Source: Desulfobacula sp. (GTDB lineage Bacteria > Desulfobacterota > Desulfobacteria > Desulfobacterales > Desulfobacteraceae). From it: 24,927 nt of DNA. Both the position numbers and the translations under genes were made by a program. The notes beneath the pieces were generated by a model that was not told the origin of the DNA, ran no database searches, and was given only the letters and a program-made list of their open reading frames with translations. Below, in pieces: positions 20,731 through 24,927 of this stretch. Numbering within the stretch: the stretch's first letter is position 1; each line of letters starts with the position of its first letter. The DNA is taken from the NCBI GenBank assembly GCA_029940235.1, contig JAOZRI010000003.1, positions 1 to 24,927 of the forward strand, given 5' to 3'.

Positions 20731-21750
20731 ATGGATTCATTAAAAAAAAATATTTTACTATTAAGTCTTTTGTTGTTATTGCCTGGAATATCATTTTCTA
20801 AAGACCTTGAAAAAGGTTTATATGCGCAATTTGATACAACCAAAGGCACAATAACCGCCAGACTTTATTATAAACAGGTACCCATGACTGTTATCAATTT
20901 TGCAGGCCTTGCCCAGGGGAGTATTGACTCCAACCAGGAACCTGGAAAAAAATATTATGATGGACTTGTTTTCCACAGAGTGATCAAGGATTTTATGATC
21001 CAGGGTGGTGATCCCACAGGAACAGGCAGGGGCGGACCTGGATATAAATTTCCAGATGAATTTGTTGATAAATTAAAACATGATTCCCCAGGTATCCTTT
21101 CTATGGCCAATTCCGGTCCTGGCACCAATGGAAGTCAGTTTTTTATAACCCATAAAGCAACTCCCTGGCTTGATAAGAAGCATACTGTATTTGGTAAAGT
21201 CATTAAAGGCCAGGATATAGTAAATAAGATTCAAAAGGGTGACAAGATAATCACCTTGACAATTTTTAGAATAGGCAAAGATGCAGAGGCATTTAAAACA
21301 GATCAGGCAAGTTTTGACGCATTGTTAGATAAAATGGAAGGGCAAAAAAGAGTGGAAGAAAAAGAAAAAATGGCAGAATTTGAGACAGCAATGCTCAAGG
21401 AGTATCCAGATGCAGTAAAAGAAAAATCTGGTCTCATGTATGTGTTAAAAGAAAAAGGATCAGGTGAAAAACCTGCAAATGGAAGTAAGGTAAAAGTCCA
21501 CTATACTGGTAAATTCGTTGATGGGAAAGTTTTTGATTCTTCCATTGAACGGGGTAAACCAATAGAGTTTGCCGTTGGAGTAGGTCAGGTTATCAAAGGT
21601 TGGGATCAAGCCATTGTAACCATGAAAAAAGGCGAAAAAAGAATTTTATTGATTCCATACTGGCTTGCCTATGGAAAGAATGGTTATCCCGGCGCCATCC
21701 CGCCTGAATCACATCTTATTTTTGATGTGGAACTCATTGATTTTAAATAG
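20731..21750 (+). CDS. Exported cyclophilin-FKBP fusion peptidyl-prolyl isomerase (dual-family immunophilin)
   Basis: A 339-residue exported protein. The N-terminal signal segment is [19 protein letters not shown]; no lipobox cysteine is seen, so release into the periplasm is likely. Residues ~28-185 are a cyclophilin: [15 protein letters not shown] (R83, F88, Q91), NGSQFFIT and W146 in PWLD. A charged linker (~190-232) probably forms a helix. Residues ~233-339 are an FKBP: VKVHYTG (Y258), VFDSS (F268, D269), [10 protein letters not shown] (W291), LAYG (Y314) and a C-terminal FDVELIDF. Active-site residues of both folds are present, so both domains may catalyse proline isomerisation during periplasmic protein folding. 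A ribosome site AGGAG is about 10 bases from the ATG. It lies alone between tRNA-His and the TetR gene. Confidence 0.92.
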
Positions 21751-21949: not shown

Positions 21950-21976
21950 TTATTTATAGATAAGGTGGATGTAAAT

Positions 21977-22582
21977 TTGTTAAAACTTAAATCAAAACAG
22001 CAGAAAAACAGATCAGAAAAATATAATAATATTTTAGATAGTGCAGGTGCTGTATTCGCACAATACGGGTTTCACAAGGCAACCATATCCCAGATAGCAT
22101 CACAGGCTGGTGTGGCTGATGGAACACTCTATCTCTATTTTAAAAATAAAGAAGACATTCTATTTCAGTTTGCAAATTTTAAAACAGATCAAGTGTTCAA
22201 GAAAATGCATTCTGCCGTAAAAAAAGGTAAAAATGCAGAAGAGAAACTGCGTAATTTAATAAGGTGTCATCTTTCAGAATTCCAGAACGATAAAAACATG
22301 GCAATTATTTTTCAGTCAGAGGTAAGATATCTGAGGGATATGGAGTCTCAAATTAAAGATATATCAAAAATGTATCTTGACCTGTTATCTGATATTATTG
22401 AGCTCGGACAGATTGAAGGAAGCATGCGCAAAGATCTTTTTGTCGGCCTTGTAAAGAGGTTTATTCTTGGTGCTGTGGAAGGTGTTATTAATACCTGGTT
22501 ATCAGCTGATGGCAGGTATGACCTTGTTCCCATGGCAGACCCCCTTGTGGAACTTTATCTTACAGGTGTTAAAGGTAAATAG
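21977..22582 (+). CDS. TetR-family transcriptional regulator (fatty-acid/acyl-CoA type likely)
   Basis: A 201-residue repressor with the TetR helix-turn-helix in the first quarter (ILDSAGAVFAQYGFHKATISQIASQAGVADGTLYLYFKNKEDIL). The C-terminal ligand and dimer domain looks like that of FadR/YsiA-type members (FQSEVRYLRDMESQIKDISKMYLDLLSDII). I choose TTG 21977 because AAGGTGG lies 8 bases upstream; the GTG at 21965 would add four residues but has no ribosome site. A palindrome over its own promoter suggests autoregulation. The next genes encode an ETF-linked oxidoreductase and EtfB, so a ligand such as an acyl-CoA is a reasonable inference but not shown. Confidence 0.85.
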   Translation: MLKLKSKQQKNRSEKYNNILDSAGAVFAQYGFHKATISQIASQAGVADGTLYLYFKNKEDILFQFANFKTDQVFKKMHSAVKKGKNAEEKLRNLIRCHLSEFQNDKNMAIIFQSEVRYLRDMESQIKDISKMYLDLLSDIIELGQIEGSMRKDLFVGLVKRFILGAVEGVINTWLSADGRYDLVPMADPLVELYLTGVKGK

Positions 22583-22717: not shown

Positions 22718-24784
22718 ATGACTTCAATAATTGGTCCAGCAAGTTTTAAATTATTTGGGATTTTTCCCACAGTAATACTGTCATTTATTATACCCATCAT
22801 TGGAATAGGATTGTTTTCATATATAATGGCAAGGCGTATTGCACCCCTTGTAAGGGCAAATCCTGATAATAGATTTGATAATATTGCCCTGCGCCTTAAA
22901 AACCTTTTTATTGTCTGGCTTGGGCAGATCAGACAACCCAGGTATATGTTGGCGGGCGTACTTCATATCTGTATTTTTTTTGGGTTTCTTGTTTTATCCA
23001 TACGCTCCTCCTCCCTTGTTATTGTCGGTCTTGCTGACGGATTTGTTTTACCGGGATTTGGTGGGACTTTTGGTAGTATCTATAATTTTTTCAAAGACTA
23101 TGCAGCCACCATTGTTCTTATTGCCTGTATAATTGCTGCTGTCAGAAGGGGTATCTACAAACCTGCGCGATACGCAGTGCCTGAAAAATATGGTCATGAC
23201 CATACATCAGAAGCTGTTTTTGTCCTTGGTATTATTTCAGTTCTAATGATTTCTGAAAGCCTTTTTGAAGCAGCCCAGGTTGTAAGTGTTGCTCACCATA
23301 CCGGGCATACTCATTTTTTGGCTCCCCTCTCCCTTGTCTGGATATTCAGGGCAATACTTTCATCAGCTTCTCAAAATGTTCTTCAAGGCTTTCATATTTT
23401 TGCATATTTTGTACACGATATTACCTTTTTCTTTTTTCTTTGTTTTCTACCCCTTGGCAAACATTTTCATGTTATTACATCAATATTTAATGTATTTTTT
23501 ATGCGGGTTAAAAAAGGAAATATCAAACCTGTCATGTATGGAGTTACAGATGAGCAGTTAGATGATCTTGAATCCTTTGGAGTTAAAAAACTTGAGGATT
23601 TTACATGGAAACATATGCTGGATTTTTATTCATGTGCAGATTGCGGCAGGTGTTCTGATCAATGCCCTGCAAATGCAGTTTCCAGACCCCTGTCTCCAAG
23701 ATTTATTACTATTAAGGCAAGGGATTTGATGTTTAAAAATTATCCGCTTTCAGGAGAAATCTATAAGAGTAAACTGCTGGTGGAAGATATTTATACAGAG
23801 GATGAAATATGGTCATGTACCACCTGTGGTGCCTGCGAGCAGGAGTGTCCTCTTGGAATCGAATATATTGATAAAATAGTTGATCTGCGAAGAGGTATGG
23901 TTGATGAAGGAATGGTGCCACAATCTCTGCAAAAACCTTTGAAAGCCCTTGAAAAAAGAGGTAATCCCTATGGAAAAATGGAGAAAAAGAGAGCTGACTG
24001 GGCAAATGATAAGGAATTTAAAGCAAATCATACAATTAAAGACCTTGGTAAAAAAGATACAGCAGATACCCTGTTTTTTGTGGACAGCATCACATCTTAT
24101 GATGATAACCTCCAGGAGATTGCAAGACGAACTTCTATTATTCTTGAAAAAGCAGGAGTCGATTTTGGAATACTTGGTAAAAAAGAGAAAGACAGTGGAA
24201 ATGAGGTCATCAGGTTTGGTGAAGAGATGCTGTATCAGGATTTAAAAGAGCAGAATAGTGCGGCTATTGAGGCAAGTGGCGTCAAACATATAGTAACAGC
24301 CGATCCCCATGCCTATAATGCTTTGAAAAATGATTATGACAATCTTCCTCCTGTTCAACATATCAGTCAGGTGGTTGCCCAGAAAATATCCACAGGCGAG
24401 CTTGATCTTAAACCCTGCATAGATCCTGACAAAGTCTATGTGTATCATGATCCTTGTTATCTTGGACGGCATAATGGTATTTATGAAGATCCAAGGCAGG
24501 CAATGGATGCTATTGATGGATTGACAAGAGTAGAGCTTGAAAAGAGCCGGGATAGATCATTTTGCTGCGGCGGCGGTGGATTGATGCTTTTTTATGAGCC
24601 TGAAGAGGAGACAAGAATGGGAGTTTTAAGAGTTAATATGGCTGCTGAAGCAGGAGCAACTGTAATTGTAACTGCCTGTCCTTTCTGTCTTGTAAATATC
24701 GAAGATGCAATCAAGGTTGCAGGAAAAGAGGGAGAAATAGAAGCTTTGGATTTTACAGAACTTATGGAACAGCACCTTGCATAA
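22718..24784 (+). CDS. Membrane cytochrome b / Fe-S / CCG-domain oxidoreductase linked to ETF (EtfAB:quinone oxidoreductase type)
   Basis: A 688-residue fusion. Residues ~10-265 hold about six membrane helices with histidines (H83, H193/H194, H226, H233) of a NarI-like b-type cytochrome. Two [4Fe-4S] motifs follow: CADCGRCSDQCP (C306-C316) and CTTCGACEQECP (C367-C377). Two heterodisulfide-reductase-type CCG domains come next. CCG-2 is intact: HDPC (C580), SFCCGG (C616-C617), ACPFC (C654, C657). CCG-1 has lost its cysteines: VDS at 455-457, DSGN at 492-495 and DPHA at 529-532 stand where the family normally has C, CCG and CPHC. Such proteins carry electrons from reduced ETF to menaquinone in beta-oxidation or aromatic degradation. 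The ribosome site is GGAGG. It is followed by etfB after 58 bases, which supports the role. Confidence 0.85.
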   Translation: MTSIIGPASFKLFGIFPTVILSFIIPIIGIGLFSYIMARRIAPLVRANPDNRFDNIALRLKNLFIVWLGQIRQPRYMLAGVLHICIFFGFLVLSIRSSSLVIVGLADGFVLPGFGGTFGSIYNFFKDYAATIVLIACIIAAVRRGIYKPARYAVPEKYGHDHTSEAVFVLGIISVLMISESLFEAAQVVSVAHHTGHTHFLAPLSLVWIFRAILSSASQNVLQGFHIFAYFVHDITFFFFLCFLPLGKHFHVITSIFNVFFMRVKKGNIKPVMYGVTDEQLDDLESFGVKKLEDFTWKHMLDFYSCADCGRCSDQCPANAVSRPLSPRFITIKARDLMFKNYPLSGEIYKSKLLVEDIYTEDEIWSCTTCGACEQECPLGIEYIDKIVDLRRGMVDEGMVPQSLQKPLKALEKRGNPYGKMEKKRADWANDKEFKANHTIKDLGKKDTADTLFFVDSITSYDDNLQEIARRTSIILEKAGVDFGILGKKEKDSGNEVIRFGEEMLYQDLKEQNSAAIEASGVKHIVTADPHAYNALKNDYDNLPPVQHISQVVAQKISTGELDLKPCIDPDKVYVYHDPCYLGRHNGIYEDPRQAMDAIDGLTRVELEKSRDRSFCCGGGGLMLFYEPEEETRMGVLRVNMAAEAGATVIVTACPFCLVNIEDAIKVAGKEGEIEALDFTELMEQHLA

Positions 24785-24842: not shown

Positions 24843-24927
24843 ATGGAAATTTTGGTATGTGTCAAGAGAGTGCCAGATACTGCTGAGAATGAATTTGAAC
24901 TCAACAGTGCCGGCAATGATCTTGATC
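24843..24927 (+). CDS. etfB: Electron transfer flavoprotein beta subunit, N-terminus (truncated by window end)
   Basis: Only the first 28 residues are seen. The start MEILVCVKRVPDT is the classic EtfB N-terminus, followed by ENEFELNSAGNDLD. EtfB forms a heterodimer with EtfA, taking electrons from acyl-CoA dehydrogenases; some forms bifurcate electrons, which cannot be judged from this fragment. The ribosome site GAGGAGG ends four bases before the ATG. The upstream oxidoreductase gene ends 58 bases earlier, so an operon is likely. A small inverted repeat (TAATTC at 24801-24806, GAATTA at 24815-24820) lies in the gap. Confidence 0.88.
   Translation, partial: MEILVCVKRVPDTAENEFELNSAGNDLD

Follow-up and report, generated by a model that had tools for sequence, protein, structure and literature searches.

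We examined a 24,927-nt stretch of DNA from Desulfobacula sp. (contig JAOZRI010000003.1, assembly GCA_029940235.1; hereafter the window) and found that the gene at 22718..24784 on the forward strand encodes a FadF/EtfD-type membrane oxidoreductase from which all four cysteine ligands of one iron-sulfur cluster, D1, are missing. The product is probably a membrane enzyme that passes electrons from fat breakdown into the respiration of this sulfate reducer. Judging from alignment, D1 cannot be held by cysteines here, and the ligands for the remaining electron wire are intact. We consider it likely that the protein is a FadF-type membrane oxidoreductase between electron transfer flavoprotein (ETF) and (mena)quinone, with an EtfD-like fold, in which D1, the outermost cluster, has been permanently lost, ETF electrons pass straight into cluster D2, and the vacated site forms a polar plug.

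Our reference was EtfD of Mycobacterium smegmatis (PDB 9ojn). The reported ligands are C503, C538, C581, and C584 for D1, a linear [3Fe-4S] cluster; C637, C672, C673, C709, C712, and H583 for D2, a noncubane [4Fe-4S] cluster; C311, C412, C415, and C418 for D3; C301, C304, C307, and C422 for D4; and H78 and H241 for heme b (PMC13083937). We aligned the window protein to EtfD and to its relatives, among which we delimit a Desulfobacterota-centred clade of 46 rows (query included; lowest identity 36-39%). The resulting features are as follows:

22718..24784, + strand: FadF/EtfD-type membrane ETF:quinone oxidoreductase, 688 aa, lacking D1 (alignment to EtfD, domain searches)
22964..22966, + strand: H83, counterpart of EtfD heme b ligand H78 (alignment; 46/46 clade rows)
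23468..23470, + strand: H251, counterpart of EtfD heme b ligand H241 (alignment; 46/46 clade rows)
23633..23665, + strand: C306, C309, and C312 for cubane cluster D4 and C316 for cubane cluster D3 (alignment to EtfD, clade rows)
23816..23848, + strand: C367, C370, and C373 for cubane cluster D3 and C377 for cubane cluster D4 (alignment to EtfD, clade rows)
24080..24088, + strand: VDS 455-457, with S457 in place of D1 ligand C503 and D456 invariant in the clade (alignment)
24191..24202, + strand: DSGN 492-495, with D492 in place of D1 ligand C538 (alignment)
24302..24313, + strand: DPHA 529-532, with D529 and A532 in place of D1 ligands C581 and C584 (alignment)
24308..24310, + strand: H531, retained counterpart of H583, the histidine ligand of noncubane cluster D2 (EtfD paper, alignment)
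24455..24457, + strand: C580, D2 ligand (C637 of EtfD; alignment)
24563..24568, + strand: C616-C617, D2 ligands (C672-C673 of EtfD; alignment)
24677..24688, + strand: C654 and C657, D2 ligands (C709 and C712 of EtfD; alignment)

The protein shares with EtfD the whole fold, the D2, D3, D4, and heme b ligands, and the character of an ETF-linked membrane oxidoreductase. Its N-terminal membrane domain is predicted from the alignment to bind heme b, both histidine ligands being present. All eight cysteines of the two cubane [4Fe-4S] sites are retained in 46/46 clade rows (D3 counterparts C316, C367, C370, and C373; D4 counterparts C306, C309, C312, and C377). D2 is complete, with C580, C616, C617, C654, and C657 from the second CCG domain (CCG2) and H531 from the first (CCG1). 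Unlike EtfD, in which four cysteines hold D1, the protein has S457, D492, D529, and A532 at those positions; and EtfD, at 1042 residues, ends in a long disordered tail that the 688-residue window protein lacks. The absence of D1 cysteines beside intact D2 ligands is the pattern of the D1-less proteins FadF and DgcB. HdrB and HdrD carry full cysteines in both CCG motifs and bind substrate at noncubane clusters, but CCG1 here is cysteine-free, and the match to the NCBIfam model CoB_CoM_SS_B scores 25.2 bits versus a cut-off of 345.15.

A first-pass annotation had drawn attention to 24080-24325 (codons 455-536). The positions it gave for VDS, DSGN, DPHA, and the CCG2 cysteines C580, C616-C617, C654, and C657 are correct, and its suggestion that one cluster was discarded agrees with the loss of the D1 cysteines and the retention of the D2, D3, D4, and heme ligands. 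The joint loss of ligands that it described is real, but on the EtfD map it comprises four ligands, not three. It had also placed aspartates at three lost ligand positions; only two such columns exist (D492 and D529), since D456 precedes the first. The histidine of DPHA does not belong among the losses, being retained in 78/78 D1-less and 57/57 cysteine-bearing rows.

The cysteines have not shifted within CCG1: of the 17 in the protein, none lies at 378-566, so that the annotation's own proviso, that they might align elsewhere in the region, does not apply. C567 sits between the two CCG domains, off the aligned ligand columns. The annotation's view that no frameshift is involved also holds, as the single 688-residue open frame aligns end-to-end with relatives. 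Among the close homologues (the best 120 of 5186 passing E 0.001; 82-100% identity, query included), D456, S457, D492, D529, H531, and A532 each occur in 120/120; residue 493 is Ser in 119 and Ala in 1, and residue 495 is Asn in 115, His in 4, and Ala in 1. For CCG1, the nonsynonymous proportion (pN) was 0.11-0.24 versus a synonymous proportion (pS) of 0.76-0.97 in three pairwise comparisons, in which pS is near saturation and only the direction is meaningful. The 120/120 homologues and a pN far below pS rule out a frameshift, assembly error, or pseudogene.

Conservation of the replaced site extends well beyond these close relatives. D456, D492, D529, P530, and H531 are each present in 46/46 clade rows. 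A phylum-wide search covered 395 genomes, 255 of them with a match at E 1e-60; among the 50 rows read, all four cysteines were absent from every row with readable motifs at ≥39% identity, and at least three of the four were present at ≤37% identity (L035 and L036 end before the second motif and L002 before the first, and were unreadable). In our reading, the lineage lost D1 long ago and the loss is now fixed, not a sign of decay. That CCG1 should be a degenerating remnant without function is extremely unlikely. Mean column entropy in the clade is higher for CCG1 (1.26 bits) than for CCG2 (0.89), as such a remnant might display, but five residues of the domain are invariant, one of them, H531, corresponds to a D2 ligand of EtfD, pN lies far below pS, and all ten-residue blocks across 451-550 have a mean pLDDT (AlphaFold's per-residue confidence) of ≥90 in a model that places no cofactors.

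Several alignment columns set the clade apart. Trees and column comparisons used 130 rows, drawn from 139 open reading frames (ORFs) plus the query once rows <600 residues and any second ORF at a locus had been excluded. The soluble-part columns separating the clade (46) from 57 cysteine-bearing rows lie mostly in the CCG domains (456, 492, 502, 529, 532, 619, 624, 634, 641, and 651); further such columns are 323 and 333 in the soluble part and five in the membrane part. D456, D492, E502, and D529 each occur in 46/46 clade rows, where the 57 D1-bearing rows mostly have G, C, N, and C. Within the clade, 492 and 529 are never anything but Asp, and turning a Cys codon into an Asp codon takes two base changes. 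Asp also stands at 529 in 76/78 D1-less rows, which span the present clade, Bacillota, Pseudomonadota, a haloarchaeon, a Chloroflexi metagenome-assembled genome (MAG), and a Chlorobiota MAG; the exceptions are two Paenibacillus rows with C529.

These observations would fit an acidic site for another metal or cation, in which S457, D492, D529, D456, and perhaps E502 ligate mononuclear Fe, Zn, Mn, or Ca/Mg in a structural or redox-active capacity. Evolution in this lineage would then have turned the four-cysteine D1 site into an invariant set of carboxylates (D456, D492, D529, possibly E502, with S457) that binds a non-iron-sulfur metal or cation beside D2. However, among D1-less rows only the present clade has the invariant D456, and Bacillota rows have N at 492 (20/20) and G or S at 456. 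With the full acidic set confined to the clade, it is improbable that all D1-less enzymes share one metal site, and other acidic functions likewise account for the conservation. We hold both the bound metal and the rebuilt carboxylate site to be unlikely. If the site were real, it would fix the potential of D2 or gate ETF docking, and a cluster site would have become a site for a different metal while the fold stayed conserved.

Under the reading that we favor, direct entry into D2, the FAD electrons of reduced ETF would pass to the noncubane cluster, by extension from EtfD, and from there to D3, D4, heme b, and menaquinone. The empty D1 site, with its invariant D456, D492, and D529, would be a polar acidic plug beside D2 and not a redox centre; packing, charge, docking, or tuning are candidate roles, in the service of D2 or of ETF docking. 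Several points weigh against this proposal. Three aspartates invariant over such a distance are more than a mere plug requires, and the surplus could reflect a bound ion or a proton role. D2 is only a candidate entry point even in EtfD, for which AlphaFold3 docking places the FAD ~12.5 Å from D1 and 11.6 Å from D2 (PMC13083937). Finally, our proposal is built on sequence, and AlphaFold places no cofactors in the pocket.

The altered electron path from ETF that the annotation envisaged stands as an inference, but one already published for related enzymes: D1 cysteines are missing from FadF and DgcB, in which ETF has been proposed to pass its electrons to D2 directly (EMBO J 2026, PMC13083937). 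The D1-less state itself is thus already known, and the Desulfobacterota branch described here is a useful extension of it, not a new kind. In the open-licence literature we did not find the Desulfobacterota D1-less branch with its aspartate signature, the retention of the D2 histidine across D1-less rows, or a D1-less gene alongside a full-cysteine paralogue with its own etf pair.

The link to ETF that the annotation had proposed is borne out by an etfB gene that begins within the window, and a regulator gene lies upstream:

21965..22582, + strand: TetR/AcrR regulator with a YsiA-like C-terminal domain (Pfam TetR_C_4, 87.7 bits; TetR_N)
24843..24927, + strand: start of etfB, 28 codons, continuing past the window end (MEILVCVKRVPDTAENEFELN..., the start of the L075 ETF beta protein; Pfam ETF)

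Of 70 D1-less clade loci, 60 have ≥800 bases downstream, and etfB and/or etfA follows in 59 of these; in L172, the sole exception, etfA and etfB precede the D1-less gene. A tetR homologue lies upstream in 14/14 same-genus loci examined (15 relatives, with the fragment G401 excluded), but in just 20/57 D1-less clade loci with ≥800 bases upstream. Elsewhere in the window, an ORF at 20731-21750 appears by eye to fuse cyclophilin-like and FKBP-like prolyl isomerase domains after a signal-like start.

We also surveyed paralogues in 25 genomes (the organism's own and 24 relatives) and read 20 stretches with further copies, a part of those among the matches listed, so that the counts are lower bounds. 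The D1-less motif was readable in 24/25 genomes, the G401 copy being a fragment. Named by the residues in the four D1 ligand columns, the 53 aligned ORFs comprised 23 SDDA (one gene counted twice, as L163 and L203), 17 CCCC, 11 CCSC, and 2 unreadable. As the annotation had proposed checking, full-cysteine paralogues do exist: the D1-less gene occurs together with one or more of them in at least 11 of the 25 genomes (G395, G396, G398, G399, G400, G402, G403, G408, G414, G415, and G416). The organism's own second copy (L002; contig C58, 2-871, minus strand) has an EtfD-type membrane domain behind etfA and stops at the contig end before the CCG domains. With a cysteine-bearing relative as query, we found no convincing match to the second half of this gene in the own genome, which is 78.69% complete. 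Its position behind etfA resembles that of cysteine-bearing loci, which is only a hint.

Cysteine-bearing genes are arranged differently. Whereas D1-less genes precede the etf genes, 10 of the 18 loci examined with cysteine-bearing genes have them after etfB-etfA, in the same orientation (L185, L191, L195, L197, L198, L207, L089, L091, L114, and L145), and six of these ten come from genomes that also have a D1-less gene (G395, G396, G398, G400, G402, and G403). Such an order might mean that the D1-less enzyme uses a different electron donor or direction, for example from quinol to ETF or with a dedicated acyl-CoA dehydrogenase complex, with D1 loss setting the potential; EMO of Syntrophus has been proposed to be bidirectional (PMC8805022). 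The contrast is not general, however, as the remaining 8/18 cysteine-bearing loci lie behind etfA alone (one) or show no etf neighbour in the stretch examined (seven). Direction, moreover, is not readable from sequence, and in Desulfococcus multivorans FadF and EtfA5B5 were reported to be formed on all substrates tested and were read as a beta-oxidation outlet (PMC5109826). A different donor or direction is, in our estimation, very unlikely. Several related species have kept cysteine-bearing paralogues as well, in some cases with an ETF of their own, perhaps for other duties.

Eight of the CCSC copies (L190-L192, L195-L198, and L207) are soluble paralogues, 384-399 residues long, that lack the membrane part; one D1 ligand is lost in them, and the C529 column is Ser (SSPHC). 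The stretches of L191, L195, L197, L198, and L207 carry, besides a soluble copy, a full-cysteine membrane copy with etfBA. The CCSC pattern recurs in L204-L206, three larger copies of 685-721 residues.

Comparison with described systems places the window protein among FadF-type enzymes. A Desulfobacula protein named FadF (P0034) is 86% identical and has the same replacements. The fadF locus of D. multivorans, compared by description, has the same kinds of genes: a TetR-type FadR2, the membrane FeS oxidoreductase FadF, and EtfA5B5 (PMC5109826). We took 20 Bacillota rows as kin of Bacillus subtilis FadF, named in PMC13083937. The D1 cysteines are absent from 18/20, D529 is present in 18/20, and the D2 ligands and H531 are kept; these genes lie beside fatty-acid genes in two annotated plasmid loci. 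They differ in having S/A457, N492, and G or S456, and the two Paenibacillus rows have C529. The kin of DgcB, an enzyme of dimethylglycine catabolism (rows L069, L070, and L073, taken as such), likewise lack the D1 cysteines and keep the D2 ligands, with adjacent ETF genes in Azospirillum L069, but show [VLA]G[DE]/DxGD/DPH without D456, and their BLAST match to the window protein is confined to the soluble part. EMO of Syntrophus aciditrophicus and the DUF224 protein of Syntrophomonas wolfei, compared by description, are also membrane FeS oxidoreductases that carry electrons from ETF to (methyl)menaquinone (PMC8805022, PMC3582634), although EMO is reported to be diheme.

Further D1-less variants were noted. 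L072 (Shinella), L074 (Azoarcus), L115 (Chloroflexi MAG), and L068 (Natrinema) form a separate group with VGD[YF]/[NF]xGN/DPHS; in three of the four, Asp also replaces C657, the fifth D2 cysteine (CPKD), whereas Natrinema retains it. The Paenibacillus rows L067 and L108 have S457, N492, and T532 with C529 retained, a possible intermediate in cluster loss. Three Terriglobia/Acidobacteriaceae contigs (L078-L080), from MAGs that bear the name Acidobacteriota, carry D1-less copies 58-60% identical to the window protein.

The number of losses was assessed on trees with uneven sampling, the named loci being the best 80 of 590. Bacillota rows fall among cysteine-bearing rows in the unconstrained trees, which at first made repeated loss an appealing reading. 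In one of these trees the D1-less state needs 4 changes (2 forced by starred branches); in the other it needs 2, with a single change in 0% of 200 bootstrap trees. Approximately unbiased (AU) tests of D1-less proteins as one clade gave p 0.128 (24 rows vs 26), p 0.127 (18 vs 26), and p 0.67 (66 vs 57), the constrained tree in the last case outscoring the free quick tree by 20.8 log units. As the AU tests did not reject a single clade, we dropped the claim of repeated convergent losses with the same aspartate.

Which EtfD-type cluster accepts electrons from ETF has been stated as an open question (PMC13083937), and the present clade amounts to a natural deletion of D1 that bears on it. In at least six related genomes a D1-less enzyme whose gene is followed by etf genes coexists with a cysteine-bearing enzyme whose gene is preceded by its own etfBA, so that the question of the ETF entry cluster could be tested by comparing these natural pairs. 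The clade-wide aspartate signature indicates that loss of a cluster can precede strict conservation of its replacement, and cluster counts made by motif alone would misread such replaced sites.
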